Source: Novosphingobium sp. MW5 (GTDB lineage Bacteria > Pseudomonadota > Alphaproteobacteria > Sphingomonadales > Sphingomonadaceae). Taken from it: a stretch of DNA of 64,000 nt. Positions 11,445 through 60,941 of the stretch are shown piece by piece. A program made the position numbers and the translations under genes. The stretch lies in the NCBI GenBank assembly GCA_025938935.1, contig JAPCWB010000001.1:1116001-1180000 (forward strand), in the 5' to 3' direction. Numbering within the stretch: the first letter of the stretch is position 1; each line of letters begins with the position of its first letter. The notes under the pieces are model-generated. The model saw only the letters and a program-made list of their open reading frames with translations. It did not search any database and was not told the DNA's origin.

Positions 11445-11445
11445 C

Positions 11446-20618: not shown

Positions 20619-21475
20619 GGAACCTGCGCCCACTTCTTGTCGAAGGCCCATACGTCTTCAAAACCAATCAGCGAGCAGAACTCGTTGAAATCGAACAGGC
20701 CGTCGGGCTGGCCGACGCCGTGATCCTTCAGGTCGCGCAGCACCTTTTCCATCGCGGCGCTGGCGGCAAGGCTGGTGAGGCTGGGATAGATGGCATAGGC
20801 AAAGCCGATGTCGGCCAGCACCTGTGCCTGCGGAACCGGGGTGGCGCCGTGGTTCGAACAGTTCACCATGATCGGCAGGTCGAACGCCTCGCACACGGTC
20901 CGCATTTCCTCCTCGCTGGTCAGCGCCTCGGGGAATAGCACGTCCGCGCCCGCCTTGGCATAGGCTTCGAGCCGGCGCAGCACGCCGTCCATTCCTTCCA
21001 TCTGCCGCGCGTCGGTGCGGGCGAGGACGAGGAAGTCCTTGCTATCGCGGCTATCCACCGCAACGCGCACCTTTTCCGCCATGTCCGCGGCGGCAATCAC
21101 CCGCTTGCCGGGAGTGTGGCCGCACTTCTTGGGAAATTCCTGATCCTCAAGCTGGATCGCCGTGACCCCCGCCGCCTCATAGCCGCGCACCGTGTGGTGG
21201 ACGTTGAGCAGCCCGCCATAGCCGGTATCGCCATCGGCGATCACGGCCGCGTCGCTGGTCTGCACCAGCGTCGCCATGCGGTTCAGCATCTCGGTATAGG
21301 TCGCGATGCCGGCGTCGGGCAGGCCATAGGCCGATGCCGTCAGCCAGTATCCCGTGCCGTAAACCAGGTCGAAGCCCACCTTGTTGGCGATGACCGCGGC
21401 AATCATATCCTGAATGCCGGGGACGATGAAGAATTCGCCCGAGGCAAGCTTTTCCCTGAAGATCGGATTGGCCAT
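20615..21475 (-). CDS. Isocitrate lyase / PEP mutase family lyase
   Basis: Protein of 286 residues, the length of 2-methylisocitrate and 2,3-dimethylmalate lyases. It has the Mg-binding DGDTGYGG (about 81-88), the acidic QLEDQEFP strand and the catalytic KKCGH (Cys about 118), which marks a true C-C lyase rather than a phosphonate mutase. The expected reaction is retro-aldol cleavage of a substituted malate or isocitrate to a 2-oxoacid (pyruvate, glyoxylate) plus a carboxylate (propionate, succinate). Start 21475 lies just downstream of HyuB. Together with the LeuCD pairs it fits a dimethylmaleate-like route known from nicotinate fermentation. Exact substrate unproven. Confidence 0.87.
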   Translation of the reverse strand: MANPIFREKLASGEFFIVPGIQDMIAAVIANKVGFDLVYGTGYWLTASAYGLPDAGIATYTEMLNRMATLVQTSDAAVIADGDTGYGGLLNVHHTVRGYEAAGVTAIQLEDQEFPKKCGHTPGKRVIAAADMAEKVRVAVDSRDSKDFLVLARTDARQMEGMDGVLRRLEAYAKAGADVLFPEALTSEEEMRTVCEAFDLPIMVNCSNHGATPVPQAQVLADIGFAYAIYPSLTSLAASAAMEKVLRDLKDHGVGQPDGLFDFNEFCSLIGFEDVWAFDKKWAQVP

Positions 21476-21481: not shown

Positions 21482-23356
21482 TTACTCGGCCGCCTCCGCG
21501 TAGTGGTGCCACTTGGGTGCCTGCGGCGCCGGAAGGCCGGTTTCGGCGAGGCAGTTGGCGCGCAGGGTTTCGATGTCCGGGCCATAGTTGAACACGGAGA
21601 CTTCGCCCCGAGCCTCGCGCATTTCGGCGCGCAAGGCTTCGGTGGCCGCGGGATCGACTTCGCCATTCACCAGCACCACGCCATAGCGGCGCGCGCCCTT
21701 TTCGGTGACGAGGCCCTGCTTTAGTTCCTTGGCCAGCAGCGCGGGATCACGGTCAAGCGGGTCGCCCCAGCCGCCGCCGCCCCAGGTGATGAAGTGGAGC
21801 TGGTCGCCAGCCTCGACCTTGTAGTCCTCGCACTTGTTGGGCAGCACGATCTCCGTGCCGTCGGCCTTGACCAGCACCTTGCGCGCACGCGCGCCCGGCT
21901 CGCCGCCGTTGACGCCCCAGGGCGGCACGAACCAGCGGTCGTCGTGAATGGCGATCACCCCGGGTTCGAGGAAGCGGTAGACCATGTCGATCCCGTTGCC
22001 ACCGCGGTGCAGGCCCGCGCCGCCGCTGTCGGGCACGGTTTCATAGCGCTCGATCACCAGCGGGAAGTAGCGTTCAAGGAACTCGTTCGGCACGTTGGTG
22101 AAGCCCGGCCACAGCGAGTGGCCGTCCGGCCCGTCGCCCATCGGACGGCCCGGGATGCCGCCAAAGCCGATCTGGAACAGCTGGAACCAGTTCCCTTGCT
22201 TGTCGGTCCCCGCATAGAACAGGTGCGGCGAAGAGCTGAAACCGGCGGCGTTGAGGAATTCCGGTGTCTTCTGGCCGAGCAGCCCGCCAAGGATGTCGAA
22301 CAGGCGGCCGAGCACATGGGTGCGGCCTGAAAGTGCGGCCGGGAACTTCGGCTTGAGCAGCGATCCTTCCGGAATGCGCACGTCGATCAGGTCATAATAG
22401 CCATCGTTGAACAGGATCTGCGGATCGAAGACCATGATCATGTAGATGCCGAAGAACATGCGCATCATGTTCTCGTTGAGGAACATGTTGATCGAGGCTT
22501 GGCTCTGCGGATCGGTGCCGTCGAAATCGAGCACGACGCGCCCGTTCTCGCGCCACATGGTGCACTTGATCTTGTAGGGGCCAAAGCCAAGGCCGTCGTC
22601 GCAGACATAGTCTTCGAAGCTGACGTGCTCTTCGCTGACCGAGGTTTCGATCAGCTGCTTCATCGCGCGGTAATTGCGGTCAAGCAGCATGTCGGTGGCC
22701 GAGGCGTAGACATCGTCGCCAAAGCGTTCGCACATCTCGATCACGCGGCGCGCAGCGACGCGGCACGAGGCGATGAGGGCGTTAAGGTCGGCCTTGCACC
22801 AGTCGGGCGTGCGGACCTGGTGCATGACCAGCTTGACCAGGTCCTCGTTGTATTCGCCCTTCTTCCAGATCTTGACCGGCGGAATGCGCACGCCTTCCTG
22901 GAAGATCGAGGTGGCGTCGATCGGCATGGAGCCTGGCACCTTGCCGCCGATGTCGCTCTGGTGGCCAAACATCGAGGTATAGGCAACGAGGCGGCCTTCG
23001 CGGAACACGGGGAGCAAGACCAGCCAGTCATTGCAGTGGCTGATCGCCCCGCCGACCGAATAGGGATCGGACAGGAAGATCATGTCGCCATCTTCGACCG
23101 TGCCGTCATAGCCTTCGAGGAAGGGGCCGATGTAGCTGCCGAACTGGCCGACGATCATTTTGCCCTTGCTGTCGGCGATCAGCGGGAAGGCGTCCCCCTG
23201 TTCGCGGATGCCCGGCGACATGGCGGTGCGCACCAGCGTGGCGTCCATTTCGATGCGCGCGTTGCGCAGGGCGTTTTCGATGACTTCCAGCGTGACCGGA
23301 TCGACCGGGACCTTCTTGAAGGGCTCGCTGTTCGACTGGATAATGCGTGCAGGCAT
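21482..23356 (-). CDS. Hydantoinase B / oxoprolinase family protein (HyuB)
   Basis: Protein of 624 residues, typical for HyuB. Near the start are VDPVTLEVIENALRNARIEM and IREQGDAFPLI, followed by HCNDWLVLLPVF and, toward the end, PDSGGAGLHRGGNGI and WGGGGWGDPL, all family hallmarks. With HyuA it forms an ATP-dependent enzyme that opens cyclic amides (5-oxoproline, N-methylhydantoin, caprolactam) or carboxylates ketones (acetone/acetophenone carboxylases). GAGGAG seven bases before ATG 23356. Next to an ICL-type lyase and an alcohol dehydrogenase, lactam or imide opening is the more attractive reading, but carboxylation cannot be excluded. Confidence 0.9.
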   Translation of the reverse strand: MPARIIQSNSEPFKKVPVDPVTLEVIENALRNARIEMDATLVRTAMSPGIREQGDAFPLIADSKGKMIVGQFGSYIGPFLEGYDGTVEDGDMIFLSDPYSVGGAISHCNDWLVLLPVFREGRLVAYTSMFGHQSDIGGKVPGSMPIDATSIFQEGVRIPPVKIWKKGEYNEDLVKLVMHQVRTPDWCKADLNALIASCRVAARRVIEMCERFGDDVYASATDMLLDRNYRAMKQLIETSVSEEHVSFEDYVCDDGLGFGPYKIKCTMWRENGRVVLDFDGTDPQSQASINMFLNENMMRMFFGIYMIMVFDPQILFNDGYYDLIDVRIPEGSLLKPKFPAALSGRTHVLGRLFDILGGLLGQKTPEFLNAAGFSSSPHLFYAGTDKQGNWFQLFQIGFGGIPGRPMGDGPDGHSLWPGFTNVPNEFLERYFPLVIERYETVPDSGGAGLHRGGNGIDMVYRFLEPGVIAIHDDRWFVPPWGVNGGEPGARARKVLVKADGTEIVLPNKCEDYKVEAGDQLHFITWGGGGWGDPLDRDPALLAKELKQGLVTEKGARRYGVVLVNGEVDPAATEALRAEMREARGEVSVFNYGPDIETLRANCLAETGLPAPQAPKWHHYAEAAE

Positions 23357-23367
23357 GTTGCAGCTCC

Positions 23368-25416
23368 TCAGCGCAGGTTGATCAGGATGTTGCCGGAAGC
23401 ATCGACAATGCCGATGCAGTCCGCTTCGATAAGCGTGGTCGAGTCCATTTCGACAACGATGGCGGGGCCTTCGATACGGTCATTGGCGCGCAGTTTGGCG
23501 CGGTCATAGATCACCGCCGGCCGCATGGCGCCGTCGACCCACAATTCGTGGTCGCGGATCTTCGCCTCGACCGGATCGCCAGTGCCCTCGGGCAGCTTGG
23601 GCGAGGGCAGATCGAGCACCGGGCCCTGCGCGATGGCGCGCAGGTTCACCAGCTCGTGCGGGCTGTCCATGTTGAAGGTGAACAGACGCAGGTGCTCCTC
23701 GTCGAAGCGGGAAATCACGGCTTCGAGCCCCCCGCTGGCGAGGTCTTCCGGCGTCACCACCAGCGGCACTTCGAAGGCCTGGCCTTCATAGCGCACGTCG
23801 ATTTCGAACACACTGGTGATATCGGCAGAGGCAACGCCCTCGGCCATCAGTTCGGCGCGGGTCTGGCCGTCCATTTCGCTGAGCACGGCCTGGACCTCGG
23901 CAAGGCTTGTGGCGGCAAAGCGGCGCGAAAAGCTCCGCGCGGTTTCGGTGCGCATCCGCGTCGTCACGTCCCCCAGCGCGCAGAGCACGCCCGGCGAGAC
24001 CGGCGAGATCGCGGGCCACGAACCCATCAGGCGAGCCACCGCATTGACGTGCAGCGGGCCGGCGCCGCCAAAGCCCATCAGGGCGAAGTGGCGCGGGTCA
24101 TAGCCCTGCTGGACCGAGATCATGCGCAGCGCGCCGAACATGTTCTCGTTGACGATGTCGATGATGCCGCGCGCGGCTTCCATCAGGCCGATGCCCAGCT
24201 TGTCGGCAATGGTCTGCACCGCGCGCTTGGCGCCTTCGCGGTCAAGCCTGAATGTGCCGCCAAGCAGGTTTTCGGGCAGGTAGCCCAGCACCACGTTGGC
24301 GTCGGTAACGGTCGGCTCGGTGCCGCCCTTTTGGTAGGCAACCGGCCCCGGGACCGCGCCGGCCGACTGCGGCCCGACGCGCAGCGCGCCGGTGAGTTCG
24401 GGAACATAGGCGATAGAACCGCCGCCGGCGCCCACTGTCTTCACATCAAGCGCCGAGGCGCGGACAGCGAGGCTGCCCACTTCAGTCGTGCGCACGCGGC
24501 GGGCCTGCAGGTTTTCGATCAGCGCCACGTCAGTCGAGGTGCCGCCCACGTCGAGCGTCAGGATGTTGGGAATGCCGGCATTGCGGCCAACCCAGATCGC
24601 GCCGGTCACACCGCCCGCCGGACCAGACATCAGCAGCGAGACGGGATGTTCCTCGGACTTTTCGGAAGACATCAGGCCGCCGTCAGAGCGCAGCAGCGAG
24701 ATATTGCCGCTCATCCCGCCGGAGCGCAGCGCGGCGCGCAGGTTGCTGATATATTTGCGCATCACCGGGCGCACCGCGGCGTTGGCCACGGTGGTCAGGG
24801 TGCGTTCGTATTCCTGCATTTCGGGCAGGACGACATGGCTGAGCGAAACCGGCACGTCGGGCATGATCTCTGCCGCCAGCTCGCCGATGCGGGCTTCGTG
24901 CGCGCCGTTGAGATAGGCGTTGACCAGCGAGACGGTGAGCGCCTGCACGCCCTGCGCCTTCAGGCTGCCCAGCGCGCTGCGGATCTCCGCCTCGTCGATG
25001 GGACGCACTTCGTTGCCGCGGGCATCCATGCGGCCCTTGACCTCGACCGTGTCTTCCAGCCGGGCGAGCGGTTCGGGCTTGGGCCAGACGATCCAGCCGC
25101 CAAGCCCGCCGGGGACGAAGCTGCGCGCGATCTGCATGACCTGGCGGTAGCCCTCGGTGGTGACGAGGCCGACGCGGGCGCCCTTGCCTTCCAGCACCGC
25201 ATTGGTCGCCACGGTTGTGCCGTGGAGGAAGAATTCGATGTCGGCCGGAGTGATCCCGGCCGTGGCGCAGATCGCGTCGACGCCGTTCAGTACGCCTTCG
25301 GAGCTGTCATGCGGGGTAGACGGAGTCTTGTGCCGCCAGAACGAACCGCTGCCCGGATCGAGCAACAGAAGGTCGGTGAAAGTGCCACCAACGTCGACAC
25401 CCAGTCTGTAGGTCAT
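23368..25416 (-). CDS. Hydantoinase A / oxoprolinase family protein (HyuA)
   Basis: Protein of 682 residues. N-terminal ATPase motif DVGGTFTDLLLLD (about 8-20), HGTTVATNAVLEGKGARVGL, the second nucleotide motif LDVGGTSTDVAL mid-protein and GFGGAGPLHVNA near 470. It supplies the ATP-driven activation of the amide carbonyl (or ketone) in partnership with HyuB, 11 bases downstream. First gene of the leftward four-gene unit; start preceded by GGGGA, with an operator-like element 84 bases further upstream. Confidence 0.92.
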   Translation of the reverse strand: MTYRLGVDVGGTFTDLLLLDPGSGSFWRHKTPSTPHDSSEGVLNGVDAICATAGITPADIEFFLHGTTVATNAVLEGKGARVGLVTTEGYRQVMQIARSFVPGGLGGWIVWPKPEPLARLEDTVEVKGRMDARGNEVRPIDEAEIRSALGSLKAQGVQALTVSLVNAYLNGAHEARIGELAAEIMPDVPVSLSHVVLPEMQEYERTLTTVANAAVRPVMRKYISNLRAALRSGGMSGNISLLRSDGGLMSSEKSEEHPVSLLMSGPAGGVTGAIWVGRNAGIPNILTLDVGGTSTDVALIENLQARRVRTTEVGSLAVRASALDVKTVGAGGGSIAYVPELTGALRVGPQSAGAVPGPVAYQKGGTEPTVTDANVVLGYLPENLLGGTFRLDREGAKRAVQTIADKLGIGLMEAARGIIDIVNENMFGALRMISVQQGYDPRHFALMGFGGAGPLHVNAVARLMGSWPAISPVSPGVLCALGDVTTRMRTETARSFSRRFAATSLAEVQAVLSEMDGQTRAELMAEGVASADITSVFEIDVRYEGQAFEVPLVVTPEDLASGGLEAVISRFDEEHLRLFTFNMDSPHELVNLRAIAQGPVLDLPSPKLPEGTGDPVEAKIRDHELWVDGAMRPAVIYDRAKLRANDRIEGPAIVVEMDSTTLIEADCIGIVDASGNILINLR

Positions 25417-36178: not shown

Positions 36179-37143
36179 AAGTGCTCGTCCGGATCGTCCT
36201 TGCCCTGTTGCTGGTCGCGGCGGGCAGCGTCATCGCGCTGCGGGCCGGGTGGGGGAGACGGACCGGGCAGAGGCGACGAAGCGCTGGGCCGGACCGCCCT
36301 CCAAATTCGTGACGGTCGATGGCGTGCCGATCCATGTGGTTGAGGAAGGGCAGGGGCCGGTCGTGGTCCTGCTCCACGGCTCGATCGTCGACCTTGCCGA
36401 ATGGGACGATGTCGCGGCGCGCCTCAAGGGGTCCTACCGCGTCGTCCGCTTCAGCTGGCCGCCCTATGGCCTGTCAGGCCCCGATCCCAAGGGCGAGTAC
36501 ACCACCGCCCGCGCCGCCGACCTGATGGACGGACTGATGAAGGCTTTGGGCCATGACAAGTTCGCCGTTGTCGCCACGTCGAATGGCAGCAACGTCGCGC
36601 TCGAATTCAACCGGCGCTATCCGGGCCATGCGACCGCCATGGCCTTTTCCATGCTGCCGCTCGAACGGCCCAGCCAGACGCGCAAGGTGGACTGGCGGCT
36701 TCAGGCCATGCTCTCCTTTCACAAGAACCTTGTCCCAGGCTGGCGGCACAAGCAGTTCTGGCAACTGGTGCTGGAGGACACGACCCCGCCCACGTTCGAT
36801 CCGCGCCCCGAAATTGCCGAGCGCATCCGCGACATGAACAACCTGCCCGGCGCGCTTGACCGGCAGGCACAGTACATCGCGTCCAACACCAAGCTGTTCA
36901 ACACGACCGATGTGGGCGCGGTGGCGGAATCGGTGCGGGTGCCGGTGCTGCTGCAATGGTGCAGCTATGACACGGTGATCTCTCAGGGCCCCGCAGCTTC
37001 AATAAAGCGGTTCACCAACACCACGGTCGAACTGATCGAATACCCTCAGCTCGGCCACTTCCCGATGTGGGAGAATCCCGACCTGTTTACTCGCGATCTC
37101 AAGGCTTTCCTTGACCGCCAGCAAGCCCCGGATCAGCAGGTTA
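36175..37143 (+). CDS. Membrane-anchored/exported alpha/beta hydrolase, frame disrupted twice
   Basis: Begins MKVLVRIVLALLLVAAGS at 36175 (start overlaps the LLM stop). Adding one G to the run at 36251-36255 joins this leader to GETDRAEATKRW and the main frame. The body has LLHGSIVD, FSWPPYGLSG, nucleophile elbow ATSNGSN, acid in CSYDTVI and base in PQLGHFPMW, a complete triad. At the 3' end the frame as given reads far into the opposite-strand gene; one added C in 37126-37129 brings in a TAG stop at 37141-37143 after LDRQQAPGSAG. About 320 residues once corrected. Closest relative in the window is 29703-30677. Confidence 0.75.
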
Positions 37144-38281
37144 GGCAGCTTCGCATTGTCCCATTCGGGGCTGGCCGGCGGGTTCGGCCCCATGCGCAGG
37201 ACAATGAGCCGGTTTCTCGGCGAGATATGGACCGTCTGGTTGTTGTTGCCATCGAACAGGAACATGTCCGGATCGAGGTAGGGCTCCGAATGGAGCACCT
37301 GCGGCCCAGGCGCGCCGGGTGCGCCAAAGCCGCGGCGCTGGCGGTAAGGCTCGCCGATCCAGATGCCGAGGCCGAAGTTCGGGTTCTGCGGCGTGCCTTT
37401 GCGCATCTGGGCGACATATCCCTTGGGTAGCAGCCGCTTGCCGTTCCACATGCCGTCATCAAGCAGCAACACGGCGAAGCGTAGCCAGGTCTCCGCCGGC
37501 AGGTACTTGCAGCACCCGGCATGGGCGAGTCCCCCCTTGCTGCCGACCCAGATCTCGCCGCCCTGCGCGCCGAGCGGTTTCAGCACCTCTCGGCTAAGGA
37601 ATTCGCCATAGCGCTGCCCTGTCGCGCGCTCGATGACCAGTGCGATCATATCGCTGGGGGCATTGGCATAGGCGTAACGTTTGCCCGGCTCCGCCACCAT
37701 CGGATAGTCGTTGATGATGCAGGCGCCGTGGTCGGTGCTGAGATAGCAGCGGTTCAGCGGATGGTCGGGATCGGTGCTGAAGCCCTGGTCCAGCATGCCC
37801 GAACGCATGTCGAGCAGGTGGCGCACGAGGATGCGGCCCTTGGGCTTGCCCTTCAGCTCTGTAATGATCTCTTCCAGCGGCTGGTCGAGCGACTTGATCT
37901 TGCCCAGCGCAATGGCCCGTCCGACCGCGATCGCGGTCAGCGGCTTGGACAGCGATTTCGACACCAGCGGCGTTTCGGCGGTCACGCCCGGGCCGTACCA
38001 GGCATCGGCAACCTTGCCCTTGTGCCAAACCATATAGGCCGTCGAGCGATTGCCCGCCGCATAGGCGCGAGCCTCGGCAAGCGCCGCCGGGGAGATTCCC
38101 GCATTACCGGTGGGCATTGGGCGATGGGTCTTGACCCCGGGCAGCGCCTCCATCGGCGCATACGGATAATTTCCCGGGTCTTTCAGGTACGTGGCAAAGC
38201 GCTGGCGATATTCGCTTTCCGCATCGGGCGCGTCATTGGCCAGGCAAATCAGGGCCAGGGAGCGAGAATCAGGCGGCGCAT
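37099..38281 (-). CDS. Exported serine hydrolase (beta-lactamase/PBP4-like), frame disrupted twice
   Basis: Class C beta-lactamase-related hydrolase. Catalytic motif SKSL (Ser-x-x-Lys) in TPLVSKSLSKPLTA, Tyr motif YAYANAPSD and a late HSEPYLDPDMFLFDG region. Adding one C (minus strand) at 38258-38260 links the main frame to a proper signal peptide start at 38281, MRRLILAPLALICLAND. At the 3' end, one added base in 37126-37129 gives a TGA stop at 37099-37101 after RGLAGGQGKP instead of reading through the neighbour. Family members hydrolyse esters, lactams or D-amino peptides. Single-gene leftward unit, divergent from the FAD monooxygenase. Confidence 0.75.
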
Positions 38282-38287
38282 GGCGTT

Positions 38288-38451: not shown

Positions 38452-39654
38452 ATGTCAGTTGATCGGTGCCAGGTTGCAATCGTCGGGGCAGGTCCCGTCG
38501 GGACCGTGATTGCAACGCTGCTTGCCCAGGCCGGGTACGATGTTGTCGTGCTCGAAGCGGGCGAAAATTGTGCGCAGGACCTTCGCGCATCCACGTTCCA
38601 TTCGCCTACCCTCGAAATGCTCGACCAGATCGGCATCACGCCGATGCTCCTCGAACGCGGCCTGAAGGCGCCGATCTACCATTGGCGCGACCGCAAGTCC
38701 GGCGAGGTGATCGAGTTCGACATGTCGGAACTCGATGACGTTACCCGCTACCCCTTCCGCATCCAGTGCGAGCAGTACCACCTTTCCCGCGCGCTGGCCG
38801 ATGGCCTGGCGAAGCACGGCAATGCGCAGGTCCGCTTCAGCAACCGCCTGCTCACCTTCCAGCAGGATGACAGCGGGGTCGACCTGTGGGTCGAAACCAT
38901 GACCGGGATCGACAAGCTGCGCTGCGATTACCTGATAGCGGCGGATGGCGCGAATTCGATCGTGCGCAAGTGGCTGGGCATCGAATTCGACGGGTTCACC
39001 TATCCCGAGCGGTTCCTTTGCCTGTCGACCGAATACGAGCTGGCCGATCACCTGCCGAACCTCGCCTACGTCAACTATGTCTCCGATCCGCAGGAGTGGC
39101 TGGTGCTGCTGCGCGTGCCTTCGGTATGGCGCGTGCTGGTGCCGACCGATGCCTCGCAGGGCGATGACGAGCTGCGTTCGGACCGCATCAAGAACGGCAT
39201 CTTCGACCGCCTCGTCGGCGATGGCGCTTCGGTCGTCACCCAGCATCGCACCCTGTACCGCGTTCACCAGCGCGTCGCGAAGTCCTTTGTCGAGGGCCGC
39301 GTGATCTTGGCGGGCGATGCCGCGCATCTCAACAATCCGCTTGGCGGCTTCGGCATGAACTCGGGCGTCCATGATGCCTTCAACCTGTTCGAAAAGCTGG
39401 AACCGGCGCTCAAGGCGGGCAAGCCCAACGGCTCGCTCCAGCTCTACGATCGCCAGCGCCGCACCGTGACGCACGCCTTTACCCAGGCGCAGACGATTGA
39501 GAACATGGCCCTGATCAGTGGCGGGGCCGATGACGCACACAAGAAGCGGCGCGACGCCATGCTGGCGATCAAGGCCGACGACGAAAAACGGCGGGGATAC
39601 ATGCTCAAGCAGGCGATGTTCGAAAGCCTGGCGCAAGCCGCGGCTATTCAGTGA
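38452..39654 (+). CDS. FAD-dependent monooxygenase, group A, copy 2
   Basis: Protein of 400 residues. GAGPVG (about 11-16) binds FAD; a mid DYLIAADGANSIVRKWLG motif and ILAGDAAHLNNPLGGFGMNSG complete the flavin site. Related to the PheA/TfdB/MhpA group that hydroxylates phenolic or heteroaromatic rings with NAD(P)H. First gene of a three-gene rightward unit with the maleate-isomerase-like protein and a membrane protein, ended by a strong terminator. Distinct in sequence from the monooxygenase at 15009, so probably oxygenates a different ring or step. Confidence 0.88.
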   Translation: MSVDRCQVAIVGAGPVGTVIATLLAQAGYDVVVLEAGENCAQDLRASTFHSPTLEMLDQIGITPMLLERGLKAPIYHWRDRKSGEVIEFDMSELDDVTRYPFRIQCEQYHLSRALADGLAKHGNAQVRFSNRLLTFQQDDSGVDLWVETMTGIDKLRCDYLIAADGANSIVRKWLGIEFDGFTYPERFLCLSTEYELADHLPNLAYVNYVSDPQEWLVLLRVPSVWRVLVPTDASQGDDELRSDRIKNGIFDRLVGDGASVVTQHRTLYRVHQRVAKSFVEGRVILAGDAAHLNNPLGGFGMNSGVHDAFNLFEKLEPALKAGKPNGSLQLYDRQRRTVTHAFTQAQTIENMALISGGADDAHKKRRDAMLAIKADDEKRRGYMLKQAMFESLAQAAAIQ

Positions 39655-39681
39655 TCGCCCGAAAGGGAAGGAATCTCGCAA

Positions 39682-40428
39682 ATGGGTGACGTACTCGGCT
39701 ATCGCCGACTGCTCGGGGTTATTGCCCCTTCGACCAACACGACCGTCCAGCCGGACATGGAACGGATGCGCCCCGAGGGCGTGACCAACCACTTCTCGCG
39801 CATCTTCGTCGAAGACCCGGTGGCGCTGAACAACGAGGATTTCATCGCCGGGACCACGGCGATCGCGGAAAACACCATGGACGCGGTGCGTTCGGTGATG
39901 ACCTGCCGGCCGGATTACCTGATCCTCGGCATGTCGGCGATCACCTTTTACGGCGGTGTTCAGGGCTCGCTCGATTTCAAGAAACAGGTCGAGGACGTCG
40001 CCGGTATCGGCGCATCCACGGGCGCTGAATCGATTGCCGCGGCACTTCACGCCTATGGCAACGTCAAGACGGTCAGCTTCGTCTCGCCCTATTACCCCGT
40101 GGCCAATGCCGAAGTGCGCCGCTTCCTTGAGGAATCGGGCTTCTCGGTGGTCCGCGACGTGCCGCTGGAATGCAAGCGCTGGACCGACATTGCCAAGGTC
40201 ACGCCGCAGCGCCTGCGCGAAGTGATCGACCATCTCGACGGACCGGAAGTGGACGCCATCGTCGAGGTCGGCACCAACCTCTCGATGGTCAGCCTGGCCG
40301 CGGAGAAGGAAGCGACGCTCGGCAAGCCGGTGATCGCAATCAACACGGCAACCTACTGGCACGGCCTGCGCGCCTGCGGGATCGACGACCGGGTGCAGGG
40401 GCTTGGCCGCCTGCTCTCGGAATTCTGA
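39682..40428 (+). CDS. Maleate isomerase / Asp-Glu racemase superfamily protein lacking the usual cysteines
   Basis: Protein of 248 residues. N-terminal APSTNTTVQPDM (about 15-26) is the carboxylate-binding start of maleate cis-trans isomerases (NicE-type) and arylmalonate decarboxylases. In that family two cysteines do the chemistry, the second in a CTNL motif. Here the corresponding places read LGMSAITFYGG (about 82-92) and VGTNLS (about 196-201), both without cysteine. The remaining cysteines (about 75, 164, 233) are elsewhere. So the fold and dicarboxylate pocket are kept but the classical isomerase mechanism should not operate; a decarboxylase, lyase or altered isomerase is possible. GGAAGGAA ribosome site. 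Confidence 0.8.
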   Translation: MGDVLGYRRLLGVIAPSTNTTVQPDMERMRPEGVTNHFSRIFVEDPVALNNEDFIAGTTAIAENTMDAVRSVMTCRPDYLILGMSAITFYGGVQGSLDFKKQVEDVAGIGASTGAESIAAALHAYGNVKTVSFVSPYYPVANAEVRRFLEESGFSVVRDVPLECKRWTDIAKVTPQRLREVIDHLDGPEVDAIVEVGTNLSMVSLAAEKEATLGKPVIAINTATYWHGLRACGIDDRVQGLGRLLSEF

Positions 40429-40455
40429 CAACAACGAACAACTTAGGGGGAAGCA

Positions 40456-41130
40456 ATGGAAGAAGTGCTCATCCTGCGCTGGGTACACATCATCAGCATG
40501 GTCTATTGGCTGGGCGGTGAATGGGGTGTGTTCCAGACCAGCTATAACGTGATCAACCGCTCGCTATCGATGGACGAGCGGCGCCGTCACATGGAAACCG
40601 CCTATCGCATCGACGTGCTGGCGCGCACTGGCATCATCCTGCTGCTGCCACTAGGCCTGCACATGGGCAACATCTATGGCCTGCAACCCTATGGCGGCTC
40701 GTTCCTGACCTTCATGTGGCTGTTCGTCGCCGGCTGGCTGGCGCTGTGCTGGGGCGCTTTCATCAAACGTGAGACCGATACCGGCATCATGCTGACCAAG
40801 CTTGACGAGAAGATCCGCTGGGTGCTGATCCCGACAATCTTCGTCGTCGGCATATCCTCGCTGCTGGGCCACGGCCCGTTCGAGGCGGGCGAAGGCATGC
40901 GCTGGTATTCGCTGAAGTTCACGCTTTATGGTTTCACCCTGTGCATCGGTCTTGGCCTGCGCTGGATCATGCGCCAGTGGACCGCGCGCTTCCGCGTGCT
41001 CGCGCAAGGCCCGAACCCGGCGGTGGAAGCGGCGCTGGAGCGGGAGTTCCTTTACGGCCGCCTGATGGCCTATGTGTACTGGATCACGATTTCGGGCATC
41101 TGCTTCCTGGGCACGGTCAAGCCGCTCTGA
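40456..41130 (+). CDS. Multi-pass membrane protein, CopD/HemJ-like, copy 1
   Basis: Protein of 224 residues with about five hydrophobic helices. The first helix carries RWVHIISMVYWLGGEW, a His-x7-WLGG pattern reminiscent of CopD/HemJ/DUF2269 membrane proteins, some of which bind heme or copper. Later helices contain further conserved-looking aromatics. A relative with the same LLHLLVPIYWLGGD start is at 56061-56724. Last gene of its unit. A role as membrane electron acceptor for one of the flavoenzymes is a guess from position; a transporter subunit is also possible. Confidence 0.65.
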   Translation: MEEVLILRWVHIISMVYWLGGEWGVFQTSYNVINRSLSMDERRRHMETAYRIDVLARTGIILLLPLGLHMGNIYGLQPYGGSFLTFMWLFVAGWLALCWGAFIKRETDTGIMLTKLDEKIRWVLIPTIFVVGISSLLGHGPFEAGEGMRWYSLKFTLYGFTLCIGLGLRWIMRQWTARFRVLAQGPNPAVEAALEREFLYGRLMAYVYWITISGICFLGTVKPL

Positions 41131-41157
41131 GCCGGAAACACCAATCGCAAAAAGGAA

Positions 41158-41187
41158 AGGGCGGCCAAACTGGCCGCCCTTTTTTTA
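41158..41187 (+). terminator. Rho-independent terminator
   Basis: AGGGCGGCCA (41158-41167) pairs exactly with TGGCCGCCCT (41171-41180) across a 3-base loop, followed by an unbroken T-run. A textbook terminator for the 38452-41130 unit, which may also serve the convergent transcript ending at 41206. Confidence 0.93.
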
Positions 41188-42123: not shown

Positions 42124-43302
42124 TCAGGTGGATTGCACGGCCCCGCTCTTCAGCAGGGCCTCGATCCTGTCCGGCGCATAGCCCAGCGCCTCCAGCACCG
42201 GGCGGCTGTCTGCCCCCGGCTGGGGCAGGGATACCTCGCCGCCGGGCCGCTTGCCGTCCATTTCCAGCGGGATTGTCGGCAGGCGGGTATGTTTGCCGGT
42301 GTCGAGCGTGACCGGCTCCAGCCCGCCGGCGGCGAGCTGCGGATCGTCGAACATGTCTTCCGGGCGGCCGATCGGGGCAAAGGGGAGGCCGGTGCCTTCC
42401 AGCTTGGCCACGACCTCGTCGCGGGTCATCGCGCCGATCATCGCGCGGATCTGCGGCATGATCCGGTCCCGCGCCAGCACCCGCTGGTTGTTGGCACGCA
42501 GGCTTTCGTCCGCCCACAGGTCGTCGAGCGCGAAAAGCTCGCAGAACTTCTTCCACAGCGCATCGGTGACAACACCGATGAACACCGGCTCGTCCTGTGT
42601 TTCGAACACGTCATAGATTGCCCAGGCCGAAATCCGCGCGGGCATCGGCGCGGCGGCTTTGCCGGTCACGGCGAACTGGGCCATGTGCTGGCCAACAAGG
42701 TAGATCGTCGTTTCGAACAGGCTGGCGATGACCTTCTGGCCCTTGCCGGTGCGATGGCGCTCCTCGATCGCGGCAAGGATGCCGATCACGCCGAACATGC
42801 CGCCCGTCACGTCGATCACGCTGGCCCCGGCGCGCAGGGGGCGGCCGGGCGGGCCGGTCATATAGGCAAGTCCGCCCATCATCTGTGCCACTTCATCCAG
42901 CGCGGTGCGATCCTCGTAAGGGCCGGGGAGGAAGCCCTTTTCGGAGCAATAGACAAGGCGCGGGTTCAAGGCGCTGAGCGCCTCCCAGCCGAGCCCCAGC
43001 CGGTCGAGCGCGCCGGGGCGGAAGTTCTCCACCAGCACGTCGGCTCCGGCGGCAAGGTCCTTGGCCACTGCCAGCCCCTCGGGCGACTTGAGGTCGAGGC
43101 AGATCGACTGCTTGCCCCGGTTGTACATCGGGAAATAGCCCGCGCCAGACCCCAGCAGCCGCCGCGTGGCATCGCCGCCGATGGGTTCGACGCGGATCAC
43201 CTCTGCACCCAGCCCGGCCAGGATGTGGCCCACTGTTGGCCCCATGACCATGTGGGTGAATTCGACCACCCGGAGACCGGCGAGCGGGGTTGGCGCGGTC
43301 AT
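42124..43302 (-). CDS. CaiB/BaiF family (class III) CoA-transferase
   Basis: Protein of 392 residues. Start LAGLRVVEFTHMVMGPTVG, LGAEVIRVEP, LDLKSPEGLAVAKDL and VENFRPGALDRLGLG are diagnostic for the family; the catalytic Asp is in RTALDEVAQMMGG (about 136). It transfers CoA from a donor such as succinyl-CoA to a carboxylic acid. Start overlaps the stop of the lyase gene. Next to an HMG-CoA-lyase homologue and LeuCD, the expected acceptor is a substituted malate (compare citramalate CoA-transferase in itaconate and citramalate catabolism). That substrate is inference. Confidence 0.9.
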   Translation of the reverse strand: MTAPTPLAGLRVVEFTHMVMGPTVGHILAGLGAEVIRVEPIGGDATRRLLGSGAGYFPMYNRGKQSICLDLKSPEGLAVAKDLAAGADVLVENFRPGALDRLGLGWEALSALNPRLVYCSEKGFLPGPYEDRTALDEVAQMMGGLAYMTGPPGRPLRAGASVIDVTGGMFGVIGILAAIEERHRTGKGQKVIASLFETTIYLVGQHMAQFAVTGKAAAPMPARISAWAIYDVFETQDEPVFIGVVTDALWKKFCELFALDDLWADESLRANNQRVLARDRIMPQIRAMIGAMTRDEVVAKLEGTGLPFAPIGRPEDMFDDPQLAAGGLEPVTLDTGKHTRLPTIPLEMDGKRPGGEVSLPQPGADSRPVLEALGYAPDRIEALLKSGAVQST

Positions 43303-44219
43303 CGGGCGATCCTTTCGGGGTAGTCTAGCATCGGACCGGCCAGCGGGGTGAAGCCGTAAAGCGGCTCACCCGGCAGCGCCTCTTCAAGGATGCTGCGAAC
43401 CGCCAGCAGCTTGTCGAGATCGATGCCGGTCTTCACGCCCATGGAATTGAGCATCAGAACGAGGTCTTCGGTCACCAGATTGCCCGAAGCCCCTGGCGCA
43501 TAGGGACAGCCGCCGAGGCCGCCGAGCGAGGCATCGATCGTGGTGATGCCTTCTTCCAGCCCCGCCAGCGCATTGGCGAGGCCAAGCCCGCGCGTGTTGT
43601 GGAGGTGCAGCGTGGTGAGCATATCGCCGCCGACCGCCGCCTTCACCGAGCGCACCATGCGCTTGACCTGCGCCGGATCGGCATAGCCGGTGGTGTCTGA
43701 CAGGCTGAGCTCTTTCGCGCCCGCCTTCACGGCCGCTTCGGCCAGACGGATTACGCGCTCTTCCGGCACCCCGCCTTCGATCGTGCAGCCGAATGCGGTG
43801 GCGAGGCCAACAGCGAAGTGGAGGCCAGCCTCATCGGCGATCCGTGCGGCCTCGGCGATTTCGGCGAGCATCGCGGGATGGTCCTTGCGCACGTTGCGCA
43901 GCGAATGGGTCTCGCTCATCGAAAAAGGGATCGACATGCCGTGGACCCCCGCCTCAGCTGCGCGGGCGGCGCCCTTCGCGTTGGGGACCAGCGCGACAAC
44001 GGTCAGGCTCGGGATGGTCCGCGCGAATTCCACCAGTGCGGCGGTATCGGCCATCTGCGGCAGCAGGCTGGGCGGCACGAAGCTGCCCACCTCGATCTCG
44101 CGCACCCCGGCTGCGGCCTCGGCGGCGATCCACGCCTTCTTGGCCTCGAGCGGCATGACCCGGTCGATCGATTGCAGGCCATCGCGCGGGCCGACTTCGG
44201 AGACGAGCACTTCGGTCAT
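43299..44219 (-). CDS. HMG-CoA lyase family aldolase
   Basis: Protein of 306 residues, TIM barrel. VGPRDGLQ near the N-terminus, LHLHNTRGLGLAN (metal histidines) and GGLGGCPYAPGASGN with the catalytic cysteine are the complete HMG-CoA lyase signature. It cleaves a 3-hydroxy-3-substituted acyl-CoA into acetyl- or propionyl-CoA plus a ketoacid. Start 44219 overlaps the LeuD stop by four bases. In this unit it would cleave the CoA ester made by the CaiB transferase, as in (R)-citramalyl-CoA or HMG-CoA degradation. The exact acyl group is unknown. Confidence 0.92.
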   Translation of the reverse strand: MTEVLVSEVGPRDGLQSIDRVMPLEAKKAWIAAEAAAGVREIEVGSFVPPSLLPQMADTAALVEFARTIPSLTVVALVPNAKGAARAAEAGVHGMSIPFSMSETHSLRNVRKDHPAMLAEIAEAARIADEAGLHFAVGLATAFGCTIEGGVPEERVIRLAEAAVKAGAKELSLSDTTGYADPAQVKRMVRSVKAAVGGDMLTTLHLHNTRGLGLANALAGLEEGITTIDASLGGLGGCPYAPGASGNLVTEDLVLMLNSMGVKTGIDLDKLLAVRSILEEALPGEPLYGFTPLAGPMLDYPERIAR

Positions 44220-44812
44220 GACAGGTATACCCATGGGCGCGCCTGCCGGTCCCGCTGGGTCCGGGCATCGATATCGGCGCGCGATTTCAAGGTGAGGTCG
44301 ATAGCATCGAGCCCTTCGAGCAGCATGGTCTTCGCTTCCTCGCCGATCTGGAAGGCAATCTCTGTTGCGCCACGGACAATGACCTGTCTTGCAAGATCGA
44401 TCGTCACTTCAGCTCCAGCCATATGGGCGAGGGCATGATTATTGGCGACGATCGGCAAAATGCCGTTGCGGATGCAATTCTGGTAGAAAATGGGGGCGAA
44501 GCTCTCGGCTACGATTGCGCGAATGCCCCATTCGGCCAGCGCCCAAACGGCGTGTTCACGGCTCGAACCGCAACCGAAGTTGCAGCCTGCCGCCAGAATT
44601 TCAGCGTTCGCATATTCCGGTCGGTTGAGCACGAAGTCCGGATTAGGTGTCCGTGCGGCTGCGTGGGTGTAGCGCCATGGTGCGAATAGCCCGTCGGCAA
44701 GGCCAGTGCGGCCAGTGCTTTTCATCTCGCGGCTGGGAATGATGGTGTCGGTATCGACATTATCGACACTCAGCGGGGCGACGACGCTGGTCAGGGTAGT
44801 GAATGGCTTCAT
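44216..44812 (-). CDS. leuD: LeuD-type (aconitase-family) hydratase small subunit, copy 2
   Basis: Protein of 198 residues. DNVDTDTIIPSREM and AGCNFGCGSSREHAVWAL match 3-isopropylmalate dehydratase small subunits closely. Coupled by four-base overlaps to LeuC upstream and to the HMG-CoA-lyase-type gene downstream. This linkage to a CoA-dependent aldolase and CoA-transferase argues that the hydratase makes a substituted malate for CoA activation. The name leuD is by family only; the enzyme is probably not for leucine synthesis. Confidence 0.87.
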   Translation of the reverse strand: MKPFTTLTSVVAPLSVDNVDTDTIIPSREMKSTGRTGLADGLFAPWRYTHAAARTPNPDFVLNRPEYANAEILAAGCNFGCGSSREHAVWALAEWGIRAIVAESFAPIFYQNCIRNGILPIVANNHALAHMAGAEVTIDLARQVIVRGATEIAFQIGEEAKTMLLEGLDAIDLTLKSRADIDARTQRDRQARPWVYLS

Positions 44813-46179
44813 GCCGCCAGTTCCCGCGCATCGGCAATCGCCCCTGCCAGCGCCGAGGCGACAACGGTTTCAGGACTTGCGATGTGGGTGCGGATGCCGG
44901 GCCCTTGCCGCCCTTCGAAATTGCGGTTGGTGCTGGAAATCGTCCGGCTGCCCGGATCGAAGCCTTCGCCGCCGGCATAGAAGCACAGCGAGCAGCCGCT
45001 CTCGCGCCATTCGAAGCCTGCGGCCTGAAATAGGTGGTGCATCCCCTCGGCCTCGGCCGCGCGCTTCACGGCCGAGCTGCCGGGGACGACCAGCGCCTTG
45101 CGGATCGACGGCGCGATGCGGCGGCCATTTAGCAACACGGCGGCTCGGCGCAGGTCGGACAGGCGGCTGTTGGTGCACGAACCGAGGAACGCCGCATCGA
45201 TGGGTACGCCCTTGATCGGCTGTCCTGCGGAGAGGCCGATGTAGTCGTGCGCGCGGGCCGGTCCTTGCGGCACAAGGCCGTCCACTGGGATTGCCTGCTC
45301 AGGGCTGGTGCCCCAGGTGACCATGGGCGCGATGCTGGCTGCATCGATCGAGACCTCCGCATCGAAGCGTGCTTCATCGTCGGACTTCAGGCCCTGCCAA
45401 TAGGGCCCGTCAATGCTCGCGGGCGCATAACGCCGCCCCGCCAGCCATGCGAACGTCGCTTCATCCGGGGCGATGATCGCGCTCATCGCCGCAAACTCGG
45501 TCGCCATGTTGCACAAGGTCATGCGCGCCTCGATATCGAGCCCGCGTACCGCGCTTCCGGCGAATTCCAGCGCCCGCCCGGCCCCGCCGCCGGCGCCGTA
45601 GGCGGCGATCAGGTGCAGCGCCATGTCCTTCGCAGTCACGCCTGCGCCCAACGCTCCGTCCCAGCGCACTCGCATCGTGCCGGGATGGCTCAGCCGCAGG
45701 ACGCCGGTTGCCATGGCGTGCTCCGCCTCGCTCGATCCGATGCCCCAGGCCAGAGCGCCGAGCGCGCCTTGGGTGCAGGTGTGGCTGTCAGGCGCGACCA
45801 GCGTGACGCCGGGCAGGACAATGCCCAGCTCTGGTGAGATGACATGGGTGATGCCCTGATCGGGATCGTTGACGTCGAACAGGGTGATCCCGGCTGCCCG
45901 CGCGGCTTCGCGGGTTTCGGTAATGAAGGCCTGCCCGCCCGTCATCAGCGTCTGGTCTCCGCGCCCCGGGCGGGTGTCGACGATATGGTCCATCACCGCG
46001 AAAACCCGGGCGGGATCACGCACCGGACGGCCCGCCGCGGCCATGGATTTGAGCGCCGATGCGCCGGTCCGCTCGTGCAGGAACACCCGGTCTATCGCAA
46101 TCAGGCTGGCTCCGCCGGGCGTTTCGGCCACGCGGTGGGCCTGCCAGATCTTGTCGAACAGGGTCTGCGGCGCGGTCAT
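44809..46179 (-). CDS. leuC: LeuC-type (aconitase-family) hydratase large subunit, copy 2
   Basis: Protein of 456 residues. TLFDKIWQAHRV start, APDSHTCTQGALGALAWG, FLGSCTNSR and GCSLCFYAGG supply the 4Fe-4S cysteines, and [17 protein letters not shown] the C-terminal signature. Slightly shorter and clearly diverged from copy 1, so the two pairs likely act on different hydroxy-dicarboxylates. ATG 46179 overlaps the MDR reductase stop. Confidence 0.88.
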   Translation of the reverse strand: MTAPQTLFDKIWQAHRVAETPGGASLIAIDRVFLHERTGASALKSMAAAGRPVRDPARVFAVMDHIVDTRPGRGDQTLMTGGQAFITETREAARAAGITLFDVNDPDQGITHVISPELGIVLPGVTLVAPDSHTCTQGALGALAWGIGSSEAEHAMATGVLRLSHPGTMRVRWDGALGAGVTAKDMALHLIAAYGAGGGAGRALEFAGSAVRGLDIEARMTLCNMATEFAAMSAIIAPDEATFAWLAGRRYAPASIDGPYWQGLKSDDEARFDAEVSIDAASIAPMVTWGTSPEQAIPVDGLVPQGPARAHDYIGLSAGQPIKGVPIDAAFLGSCTNSRLSDLRRAAVLLNGRRIAPSIRKALVVPGSSAVKRAAEAEGMHHLFQAAGFEWRESGCSLCFYAGGEGFDPGSRTISSTNRNFEGRQGPGIRTHIASPETVVASALAGAIADARELAA

Positions 46180-58475: not shown

Positions 58476-59389
58476 GTGGTGCTCCTGAATGCGTCGATGA
58501 TGTCCGCGCCGCGCGCGAACCATGTGCCCTGCCGTGCTGCCAGTTCGGCGAGCAGGCGCTCGAAGGTGTCCATCCGGTAAGGCAGGCCGGTGATGTAGGG
58601 CGTCAGGTGAAGCGGCAGCATCCGCCCGCCGGCGCACTGCGCTGCTTCGTTCGACAGCCAGTCATGCGCGTCGAGCACCTGCTCGGCATAGCTGTCGATG
58701 GTCTGCTGCTGGACATTGAGGATCTGCCGGTCGGACAGTTCGTGATTGAGCGGCAGGTTGATCAGGCCGTTGGTGAAGGCCCATGGCAGTTCGTCGTTCG
58801 CCCAGTCGCAGCAATATTCGACACCGGCGTCCTTCAGCAGGTCCGCCGTGGCGAAGCTCTGCGAGCGGGCGATGGAGAGCCAGCCGCGCGGGCGGGTGCC
58901 GGTGGCGGCTTCGAGATGGCTGAGCGAAGCCTCGATCAGCGCCGCCTCATCCTCGCGCGGGAGGGTGGAGGCGATGGTGCCGTTCATGTCGGTCGAATGG
59001 GCGATGATCTCGTGCCCGGCCGCGGCGATGTCCCGCACCAGCACGGGATAGCGCTCGGCAATGGCAGCGTTGACCGCGAAGCTGGCCTTTATCCCGGCCT
59101 TCGCAAAGGCATCGAGCAGGCGGTAGACGCCCACCCGGTTGCCATAATCACGCGCGGTGTAGTGGCGGTAATCGGGATAGGCTGTCTGCATGTGCCCCGG
59201 TGCGCGGAAGGGCTTGTCGGCCGGGGTGATCGGAAACCATTCGACGCTGACGCAGAACCAGACGGCGAGGGACTTGCCCTCCGGCCAATGGATCGGCGCA
59301 CGGCGGTGCAGCGGGGCGTAGGGGTAGAGTTCGTGGTCGTACCCTTCACGGCGGCGCGGGTATTCGAGATAGGCGGGGTCGAGGCTCAT
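58472..59389 (-). CDS. Polysaccharide-deacetylase-fold protein, imidase/PuuE-like, copy 2
   Basis: Protein of 305 residues. NodB fold with WFCVSVEWFPI where sugar deacetylases have TFDDG, AHSTDMNG as the histidine motif, GWLSIARSQSFAT and a late LPLHLTPYITG. The start overlaps the next upstream gene by four bases. No signal peptide. Resembles copy 3 (adjacent) and copy 1 (14098) but each differs in the metal-site residues, so three related ring substrates or successive steps are possible. Confidence 0.8.
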   Translation of the reverse strand: MSLDPAYLEYPRRREGYDHELYPYAPLHRRAPIHWPEGKSLAVWFCVSVEWFPITPADKPFRAPGHMQTAYPDYRHYTARDYGNRVGVYRLLDAFAKAGIKASFAVNAAIAERYPVLVRDIAAAGHEIIAHSTDMNGTIASTLPREDEAALIEASLSHLEAATGTRPRGWLSIARSQSFATADLLKDAGVEYCCDWANDELPWAFTNGLINLPLNHELSDRQILNVQQQTIDSYAEQVLDAHDWLSNEAAQCAGGRMLPLHLTPYITGLPYRMDTFERLLAELAARQGTWFARGADIIDAFRSTT

Positions 59390-60258
59390 TGCGCGGCCCT
59401 CCAAGCGTCGGCAATCTCGCCGGAAGTCGTGGCCCAGGCCCGGCCATCGGCGGCGATGTGGCGCAGCACTTCCTCGAAAGCGCCGATGCGGTGCGGCTGG
59501 CCGATCAAGTAGGAGTGCAGCGGAATGCACATCACCGTGCCGCTGGCCTCGTCCGCCAGTCGCTCGAACTGGCGGATCAGCGTGCGGGCATATTCGCGCG
59601 GGCTCATGTTGTAGATGAAGAAGCCGTAGTGATCGTTGACTTCGAGGCTGTAGGGCATCGAGATGAGGTCGCCGCTCGCGGTCTTCACCCGGAACGGCTG
59701 GTCATCGTGATAGAGGTCGCAGGTGTAATCGAGGCCGTACTCTGCGATCAGGTCGAGCGTGCGCGGCGTGTGCGTGAGCGCGGGCGCGAGCCAGCCCCGG
59801 ATCGTCTGCCCGGTCGCCTCGCGCACGGTGCGGATCGAATCCTCGATGATCGCGCGTTCCTGCGCTTCGTCCATGCCGTAGGAATAGCGGGTATTGTAAA
59901 TGCCGTGGCTGAAGAACTCCCAGCCGCGCGCATTGGCGTCGGCGACGACTTCCGGGTGATGCTGGCACAGCGCGACGGACAGCGAGACCGAGCCGGGAAA
60001 GCCGTGCCGGGTCATAACATCGGCCATGCGCCAGTGGCTCACCCGGTTGGCATGGTCGCGGTGCGAATAGCCGACTACGTCCGGGTGCGGCATGGCCCAG
60101 GCCTTGCGGTGCGGGTTCAGCGGCGGGTCGATTTCGTAATATTCGAGGTTGGGCGAAACCCAGACCGCCACCTTCTTGCCCCCCGGCCACGCGAATGGCT
60201 TGCGCCCTCTATAGGGAACGTAGTCGTAGAGGCCGGGATCGGCCGCACCTTCGATCAC
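59386..60258 (-). CDS. Polysaccharide-deacetylase-fold protein, imidase/PuuE-like, copy 3
   Basis: Protein of 290 residues. GTG start 60258 seven bases after GGAGG, overlapping the amidohydrolase stop. WVSPNLEYYEI replaces TFDDG; FFSHGIYNTRY is the histidine motif; GWLAPALTHTPRTLDL and MPYSLEVNDHYGFF follow, and PLHSYLIGQPHRIG closes the metal site. This NLEY/SHG pattern matches allantoinase-PuuE/cyclic imide hydrolase relatives well. The immediately upstream isochorismatase-fold amidase would be the natural half-amidase partner. Confidence 0.82.
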   Translation of the reverse strand: MIEGAADPGLYDYVPYRGRKPFAWPGGKKVAVWVSPNLEYYEIDPPLNPHRKAWAMPHPDVVGYSHRDHANRVSHWRMADVMTRHGFPGSVSLSVALCQHHPEVVADANARGWEFFSHGIYNTRYSYGMDEAQERAIIEDSIRTVREATGQTIRGWLAPALTHTPRTLDLIAEYGLDYTCDLYHDDQPFRVKTASGDLISMPYSLEVNDHYGFFIYNMSPREYARTLIRQFERLADEASGTVMCIPLHSYLIGQPHRIGAFEEVLRHIAADGRAWATTSGEIADAWRAAQ

Positions 60259-60941
60259 GGGCGCGCCTCCAGCCAGTCGATCACGGTCTGCACCGGCTCG
60301 ACATCGGCATATTTGAGCTGCAGGTCGGTCAGGTTGGCGAAGTGATAGGACTCGTGCTTGTCGGCGCAGGTCTCGATCGGGACGATGGTGCGATAACCGC
60401 GCGAGAGGCTGTCCACCGCCGTCGCGCGCACGCAGCCCGAGGTGCTGCCGCCGGTCACGACCACGGTATCGACCTTGTGCCACACCAGCAGGCTTTGCAG
60501 CGGCGTTTCGAAAAAGGCCGAGGGCATCCGCTTGGTGTAGATCATGTCCGCCGGGTCGATTTCGCAGCGCTCGTCAATTGCGTGACGGTCGCTGTCGTAC
60601 TTGATGTTCTGCAGCGAATCCGGCGTGTTGGTCCGCGTGCCCCAGACGCCCGCATCGCTCGCGTCCTCGGCATAGGCAACGTGGGTCCAGATCACCGGCA
60701 TGCCCTTTGCCCGGGCCAGCGCCGAGATCGTGTTGGTATATTCGATCTGGCGCGGATCGGTTTCGTAGGCCGTCTTGTAGCGGTCGATCCGGGTATAGGC
60801 GTTCTGGAAATCGACGTTCACGATCGCCAGCTTTTCGCCAAAGCCGAACTTGGTGCGGGCCGGGTTGGCCATCACTTCCTCGAACAGCTGGCGCGCGGTC
60901 TTGCCGTCGCTGACCATGCGTGTGCCGATGATGTCGCTCAT
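60255..60941 (-). CDS. Isochorismatase-fold amidohydrolase, copy 2
   Basis: Protein of 228 residues. Triad Asp about 44 (AIVNVDFQNAY), Lys about 137 (IYTKRMPSAFF) and Cys about 170 (GSTSGCVRATAV). Same N-carbamoylsarcosine/maleamate-amidase branch as 8780-9412, with an N-terminal extension. Coupled by four-base overlaps to an MFS carrier and an imidase-like gene. Predicted to hydrolyse the half-amide product of imide ring opening. Confidence 0.87.
   Translation of the reverse strand: MSDIIGTRMVSDGKTARQLFEEVMANPARTKFGFGEKLAIVNVDFQNAYTRIDRYKTAYETDPRQIEYTNTISALARAKGMPVIWTHVAYAEDASDAGVWGTRTNTPDSLQNIKYDSDRHAIDERCEIDPADMIYTKRMPSAFFETPLQSLLVWHKVDTVVVTGGSTSGCVRATAVDSLSRGYRTIVPIETCADKHESYHFANLTDLQLKYADVEPVQTVIDWLEARP

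Follow-up and report, generated by a model that had tools for sequence, protein, structure and literature searches.

A cysteine-free clade of the maleate isomerase/arylmalonate decarboxylase fold, encoded beside an FAD monooxygenase in Novosphingobium

The family surrounding maleate isomerase and arylmalonate decarboxylase (AMDase) is known for its cysteine chemistry. In PMC12661438 and PMC10156859, a pair of cysteines acting as acid and base is described as conserved in, or common to, the Asp/Glu racemase superfamily, with mutants that are nearly or wholly inactive, and replacement of the second cysteine of OpaE is reported to leave at most 0.3% of the activity (PMC12661438). At the positions of this usual pair, a 248-aa protein of Novosphingobium sp. 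MW5, encoded in a stretch of 64,000 nucleotides (contig JAPCWB010000001.1, hereafter the window), has Met84 and Gly197, and the clade to which it belongs represents a departure within a known fold.

The closest described structures are those of the maleate cis-trans isomerases from N. farcinica (2xec/2xed) and P. putida (4fq5/4fq7). The AlphaFold model of the 248-aa protein (pLDDT 95.4), for which structures were also compared by Foldseek, resembles them over the whole fold (Z 31.4-32.5, rmsd 1.7-1.8, 23-24% identity), with the match to 2xed (Z 32.5, rmsd 1.7, 234 residues) bearing out the maleate-isomerase fold proposed by an earlier sequence-only reading. The PSxN motif and a tyrosine at position 137 are shared, whereas the catalytic cysteines are replaced by Met84 and Gly197, and Asn163 by Trp167. 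AMDase (3ixl) follows with Z 29.6, and among the 50 matches listed, the two-domain pseudo-symmetric fold of the superfamily is seen in the aspartate, glutamate, hydantoin, and allantoin racemases at Z 13.6-19.6, the last value belonging to allantoin racemase. A hypothetical protein of R. opacus (OPAG_01669, PDB 4ix1) has the same fold (Z 27.4) and likewise lacks both cysteines (Gly/Gly), but lies outside the clade of the 248-aa protein on a long branch. The allantoin racemases HpxA/AllR differ in having two catalytic cysteines (PMC12661438) and in sharing only 13% identity with the 248-aa protein.

Family profiles place the protein near several known enzymes. Pfam Amdase (PF17645) is its best family at 63.3 bits against a gathering score of 25.9, and the AMDase oxyanion-hole positions are represented by S85/A86/Y137; however, Cys188 and Gly74 of AMDase are absent (G197 and M84), and the score of 57.6 bits falls far under the cut-off of 225 for the NCBIfam AMDase equivalog NF052327. 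The EutA equivalog TIGR02990 is matched over its full length with 66.4 bits, yet its 318-bit cut-off is missed, and the score for Pfam Asp_Glu_race (14 bits) is below the gathering score of 31. Family-based annotation would probably label the cysteine-less members as maleate isomerase or arylmalonate decarboxylase.

The gene and its immediate neighbours are as follows.
36999..38153, minus strand: beta-lactamase-family serine hydrolase, divergent from the FAD monooxygenase and found in 24 of 80 close loci
38452..39654, plus strand: FAD_binding_3 monooxygenase, on the same strand as the 248-aa protein gene and 27 nt upstream of it
39682..40428, plus strand: AMDase/maleate-isomerase-fold protein without catalytic cysteines; key residues M84, S85, Y137, W167, and G197-T198-N199
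40456..41130, plus strand: membrane protein of 224 aa with no Pfam match at 1e-5

The open reading frame, the translation of which contains APSTNTTVQPDM, LGMSAITFYGG, and VGTNLS, begins 27 nt past the end of the monooxygenase gene and is preceded by a purine-rich stretch. The nearest solved structures of the monooxygenase are PnpA (6ain) and HspB (7da9), and it has one match in its own genome (E<=1e-15). An antisense open frame of 677 aa (38455-40488, minus strand) overlaps both genes and was favoured over the forward frame by a crude picker based on codon-position GC; it has no Pfam match, unlike the forward frames at 38452-40428, which have Pfam matches and conserved relatives. Scans of 38000-41400 gave about as many sites as shuffled sequence for both promoters (1 against 1.0) and terminators (3 against 2.7).

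Catalytic positions were mapped with a profile of 55 sequences (the 248-aa protein and 54 of the 80 relatives retained out of 404; alignment A1) aligned to solved chains, some of the residue numbers for maleate isomerase and AMDase being counted along the alignment. M84 falls on the first catalytic cysteine of 2xec (maleate isomerase from N. farcinica) and, in AMDase (3ixl), on position 74; the counterparts of G197 are Cys194 in maleate isomerase and position 188 in AMDase. The earlier claim that both cysteines are lost thus stands, although of the residues M-S first read in LGMSAITFYGG only M84 occupies the cysteine position, S85 being the next residue. S85, A86, and Y137 align with AMDase positions 75, 76, and 126, which form its oxyanion hole. 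Counted along the alignment, W167 occupies the position of maleate isomerase Asn163, the residue that holds the second carboxylate. The carboxylate-binding motif was previously called intact; this is so for the N-terminal PSTN, but not for the Asn163 position.

These replacements are far from chance, since they are almost totally conserved in 82 close rows (80 loci, the 248-aa protein, and its own-genome copy; 80 distinct sequences): M84 in 82/82, W167 in 82/82, and G197 in 81/81 with one gap (L051). A substitute thiol was sought in C75 and C164 and rejected: C75 is kept in 67/82 close rows (51/55 in alignment A1) and C164 in 68/82, and the alignment places neither on a catalytic position. In the model, C75 terminates the helix ahead of strand 79-82, and C164 lies three residues before W167. 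No cysteine column is invariant in the 82 close rows and, beyond these two, none reaches 40/82. A pseudogene reading was rejected on residue conservation and on dN/dS, which is 0.10-0.26 in six of seven pairs with the 248-aa protein gene (the pair with L006 is saturated and that with L031, at dS 2.8, nearly so).

The wider clade was delimited by two trees. In the first, built from 93 rows after removal of columns 84 and 197, a single branch (SH-aLRT 100) separates precisely the 75 rows labelled as having neither cysteine from all the others; domain hits shorter than 190 residues and the duplicate own-genome copy had been left out, and the close family was represented by 20 rows (19 loci and the 248-aa protein). 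In the second, likewise made with both catalytic columns removed, but with another aligner and from 50 rows including 27 hand-picked rows of the 75 and the PDB sequences 4ix1 and 2xec, the 27 form one clade with support 100/100, apart from cysteine-bearing relatives. Both trees and the fetched loci bear out the earlier suggestion of a clade with a common GTN motif. The second tree places 4ix1 (unsure, given its long branches) and L101/L110 outside the main clade although they lack the cysteines. As judged from sequence, the loss is old in the main clade and seems to have occurred elsewhere too; the earlier statement that the family needs these cysteines is fair for the family at large, except for these further lineages. 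In L101 and L110, which make up a second lineage without the cysteines, the catalytic positions are occupied by S and D.

Across the first tree, position 197 is Gly in 75/75 cysteine-less rows and Cys in all 18 others. Position 23 is Gln in 69/75 (Glu in 6) against Glu in 17/18 (one gap), position 195 is Gln in 70/75 against Ile, Leu, Val, or Thr in 18/18, and position 220 has Ile in place of Ser. The 248-aa protein has E195, found in three of the 82 close rows, two of which are the protein itself and its own-genome copy. A catalytic methionine was rejected, position 84 reading M in 62, I in 6, N in 3, L in 2, and others in the remainder of the 75 rows. H227 occurs in just 52/75 rows, so no general base is assigned. 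Position 167 is Trp throughout the close rows and Pro in 42/75 of the wider cysteine-less rows. Class-wide and family-wide searches brought up sister groups having the motif GMSAETFWDG and Pro at 167, as well as deeper groups represented by L171-L173, L180, and L181.

As regards distribution, PF17645 members occur in 71/398 genomes of the phylum, and the second cysteine is kept in 28 of the 30 PF17645 loci fetched, in motifs such as SCTN, SCTA, and SCGG, so that GTN is equivalent to CTN after a change of cysteine to glycine. In the class-wide search, 116/385 genomes matched at E<=1e-12, a count that takes in cysteine-bearing relatives, and 50/385 matched at E<=1e-33, a match at E 1.5e-32 being already cysteine-bearing; the cysteine-less motif was read solely in fetched loci. 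In the family, 22/199 genomes match, 19 of them at E<=1e-80, the own genome included. On these sequence comparisons, the cysteine-free clade is an old and widespread branch of the maleate isomerase/AMDase family, and the depth of its conservation suggests that the scaffold has a second mode of working. Tandem cysteine-less copies occur in L163 and L162, L167-L170 are among the loci with a cysteine-bearing paralogue near the cysteine-less one, and genomes G606, G721, and G882 hold seven matching copies each. A search of open-licence papers, and hence a weak negative, found no published description of the clade or its gene set.

Gene coupling was followed in three test sets: 80 close loci (L001-L080), 12 Sphingomonadaceae loci (L150-L161, hand-chosen from the 18 other genomes that the family-wide search matched strongly), and 20 other loci (L162-L181, hand-chosen for tandem copies and deep groups, with L178 being the same DNA as L038). 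The control comprised 20 of the 30 PF17645 loci, mostly from other taxa and including one (L195) from another cysteine-less lineage. The FAD monooxygenase is present in 51/80, 12/12, and 6/20 loci of the three sets, the PuuE-like amidohydrolase in 21/80, 7/12, and 6/20, the lyase homologue in 19/80, 8/12, and 3/20, the amidase in 9/80, 5/12, and 3/20, LeuC in 23/80, 2/12, and 1/20, and LeuD in 24/80, 2/12, and 1/20, each against 0/20 in the control; as the control loci are set apart by taxonomy and not by cysteine state alone, the contrast is suggestive, not clean. Control loci matched an aldehyde dehydrogenase in 4/20 and the 248-aa protein in 2/20. Where the monooxygenase is present (69 test loci), the two open frames are no more than 500 bases apart in 61 loci, on the same strand in 55, and arranged with the monooxygenase directly upstream in 53. 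No monooxygenase lies inside the fetched flanks, some of which are short at contig ends, in 29/80 of the close loci and 14/20 of L162-L181. Of the flanking genes originally pointed out, the monooxygenase has thus proved a conserved neighbour, whereas the membrane protein is found mainly in the closest relatives (13/80 loci, 12 of these 13 within L001-L030).

Homologues of the recurrent partners, an aldehyde dehydrogenase among them, are scattered over the window, their identities resting on homology mostly below equivalog cut-offs. Percentages refer to proteins of the relatives L033 (Niveispirillum irakense) and L070.
8783..9520, minus strand: isochorismatase-domain protein (amidase), 42% to the L070 protein
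9409..10038, minus strand: LeuD-type small subunit, start inferred inside ORF 9409-10236
10035..11498, minus strand: LeuC-type aconitase-family large subunit, 65% to the L033 protein
14098..15009, plus strand: PuuE/allantoinase-like amidohydrolase, 76% to the L033 protein, itself with no Pfam match at 1e-3
18611..19402, minus strand: IclR-type regulator, 72% to the L033 protein
20618..21475, minus strand: PEP-mutase/isocitrate-lyase family protein, alkylmalate or methylisocitrate lyase-like, 67% to the L033 protein
21485..25416, minus strand: Hydantoinase_B and Hydantoinase_A type pair
42124..43302, minus strand: class III (CaiB-type) CoA-transferase
43299..44234, minus strand: HMG-CoA-lyase-like enzyme, 262.6 bits against the PRK05692 cut-off of 246
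44216..44812, minus strand: second LeuD-type small subunit
44809..46179, minus strand: second LeuC-type large subunit, 48% to the same L033 protein
58502..60228, minus strand: two tandem PuuE-like paralogues, 31% to the L033 protein
60291..60854, minus strand: second isochorismatase-like protein (amidase), 40% to the L070 protein

In Niveispirillum irakense, thirteen window proteins have their best (one-way) matches within 17 kb at 41-76% identity, namely LeuC, the PuuE-like protein, the IclR regulator, the lyase, an MFS protein, an alpha/beta hydrolase, an M24 protein, two luciferase-like proteins, a beta-lactamase-like protein, an FAD-linked oxidase, the monooxygenase, and the 248-aa protein. 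Its PuuE-like protein matches PuuE (NCBIfam 143 bits, cut-off 425; PDB 3cl6, E 6.6e-34), and its lyase matches petal death protein, 2,3-dimethylmalate lyase, and methylisocitrate lyases. The L070 amidase has its best solved match in 3ot4/3uao (E 2.9e-64), a maleamate amidohydrolase. The distance from the 248-aa protein gene to the PuuE-like, lyase, and amidase genes of the window is about 18-30 kb, which puts them outside its operon. The window PuuE-like protein is 79-91% identical to its matches in L150, L151, L153, L161, and L166, whereas the 248-aa protein is 41-52% identical there (the better of two homologues being counted in L150 and L166), which argues that the PuuE-like enzyme is a fixed step beside variable partners. 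The 65% and 48% identities of the large subunits of the two LeuC/LeuD-type pairs to one L033 protein suggest two different unsaturated diacid substrates.

In purine breakdown, allantoin racemase works between the FAD enzyme HpxO and a PuuE-type allantoinase, and PuuE-type enzymes open cyclic amides. The gene setting of the 248-aa protein is analogous to that pathway, and by this analogy together with the operon order, the protein would act between the monooxygenase step and a ring-opening amidohydrolase step. With about even confidence, we read it as a working, thiol-free enzyme that most likely serves one catabolic route with the FAD monooxygenase and the PuuE-like amidohydrolase, probably as an isomerase or tautomerase. 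An enolate-like state would be stabilised by S85, the backbone amides near A86, Y137, and T198-N199, which would hold one carboxylate or amide oxyanion of the product released by the monooxygenase, with protons transferred via solvent or the acidic C-H/N-H of the substrate in place of thiols; such transfer would suit tautomerisation or isomerisation, or else a decarboxylation in which re-protonation is not controlled. The PuuE-like amidohydrolase may then open the resulting ring compound and the isochorismatase-like amidase de-amidate it; after hydration by LeuCD-type enzymes, the last step would be cleavage by the lyase, or by the CoA-transferase and HMG-CoA-lyase-like enzyme. The gene set suggests ring oxidation, isomerisation, ring opening, de-amidation, hydration, and cleavage, the order being guesswork, and we infer an N-heterocycle or a cyclic imide as the substrate class. 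It is possible, albeit doubtful, that the clade performs a reaction new to the superfamily, for instance isomerising or ring-opening the monooxygenase product to a substituted cyclic imide or lactam, as part of a widespread, undescribed catabolism of natural pyrrole- or pyridine-type compounds via alkylmaleates to pyruvate and short acids. The conserved partner genes make the pathway testable by growth and knock-out.

Published routes were also compared. In open-licence papers, no fitting pathway was found for citrazinate/cis-aconitamide, alkylmaleamate, or maleimide/imidase routes, and what was found on dimethylmaleate concerned other clusters. The nicotine-type HspB-NicX-NicF-NicE pathway was considered as well; no ring-cleaving dioxygenase was seen among the window genes scanned, a part of all its genes.

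A cysteine-independent decarboxylase or C-C lyase, in which the oxyanion hole stabilises the enediolate left after loss of CO2 or a C-C fragment and solvent protonates it, is a rather unlikely alternative: Amdase is the best Pfam family, the AMDase oxyanion-hole positions map to S85, A86, and Y137, and W167, at the place of the Asn that binds the second carboxylate, suits a substrate held through a single carboxylate, but none of the annotated cluster genes points to a malonate-type step. Moreover, Cys188 is described as the only proton donor of AMDase (PMC4996985), and this residue is Gly in the 248-aa protein. The Trp found at the Asn163 position in 82/82 close rows, and the Pro in 42/75 wider rows, also weaken the earlier idea of a new reaction on a dicarboxylate. 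They weigh further on an ordinary maleate or citraconate isomerase with other residues as nucleophile and acid, which we consider highly improbable even though maleate isomerases are the nearest solved folds and LeuCD-type enzymes act on cis-dicarboxylates. Catalysis by the known enzyme passes through a covalent succinylcysteine intermediate (title of 2xed), the 248-aa protein has neither catalytic cysteine and carries Trp at the Asn163 position, and LeuCD-type hydratases would take the cis form directly, making isomerisation to trans unneeded.

A non-catalytic binding or chaperone-like protein that holds a reactive product of the monooxygenase would agree with the absence of both cysteines and with the tight coupling to the monooxygenase gene. 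This possibility, also raised by the sequence-only reading, is now improbable: the oxyanion-hole and PSTN residues are near invariant across the deep clade, dN/dS indicates purifying selection, partner genes are conserved, and the monooxygenase is missing from the fetched flanks of many homologues, while the seven copies in each of three genomes suggest substrate-specific enzymes. The thiol-free isomerase or tautomerase remains the preferred reading.

Several further genes in and around the cluster may be mentioned. An aldehyde dehydrogenase (recognised by eye) and a flavin amine oxidase (Pfam, second part) adjoin at 25603-27107 and 27147-28693 on the plus strand, each split over two frames by decay or base-calling errors. 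For another flavin amine oxidase, at 12602-14092, no solved structure matches at E<=1e-25. A methyltransferase (L025 8892-10103, by Pfam; window 50578-51630, minus strand), the N-terminal part of which has no Pfam match, recurs in 17/80 loci, in some Gammaproteobacteria directly after the homologue of the 248-aa protein, and is often followed in related clusters by a protein of about 116 aa without a Pfam match (e.g. L031 3187-3534). Last, a small HapK/RedY-like protein is encoded at 51813-52175 of the window (plus strand, Pfam 49 bits); such proteins occur in prodiginine-type pyrrole pathways, and its presence is a possible hint at a pyrrole substrate.
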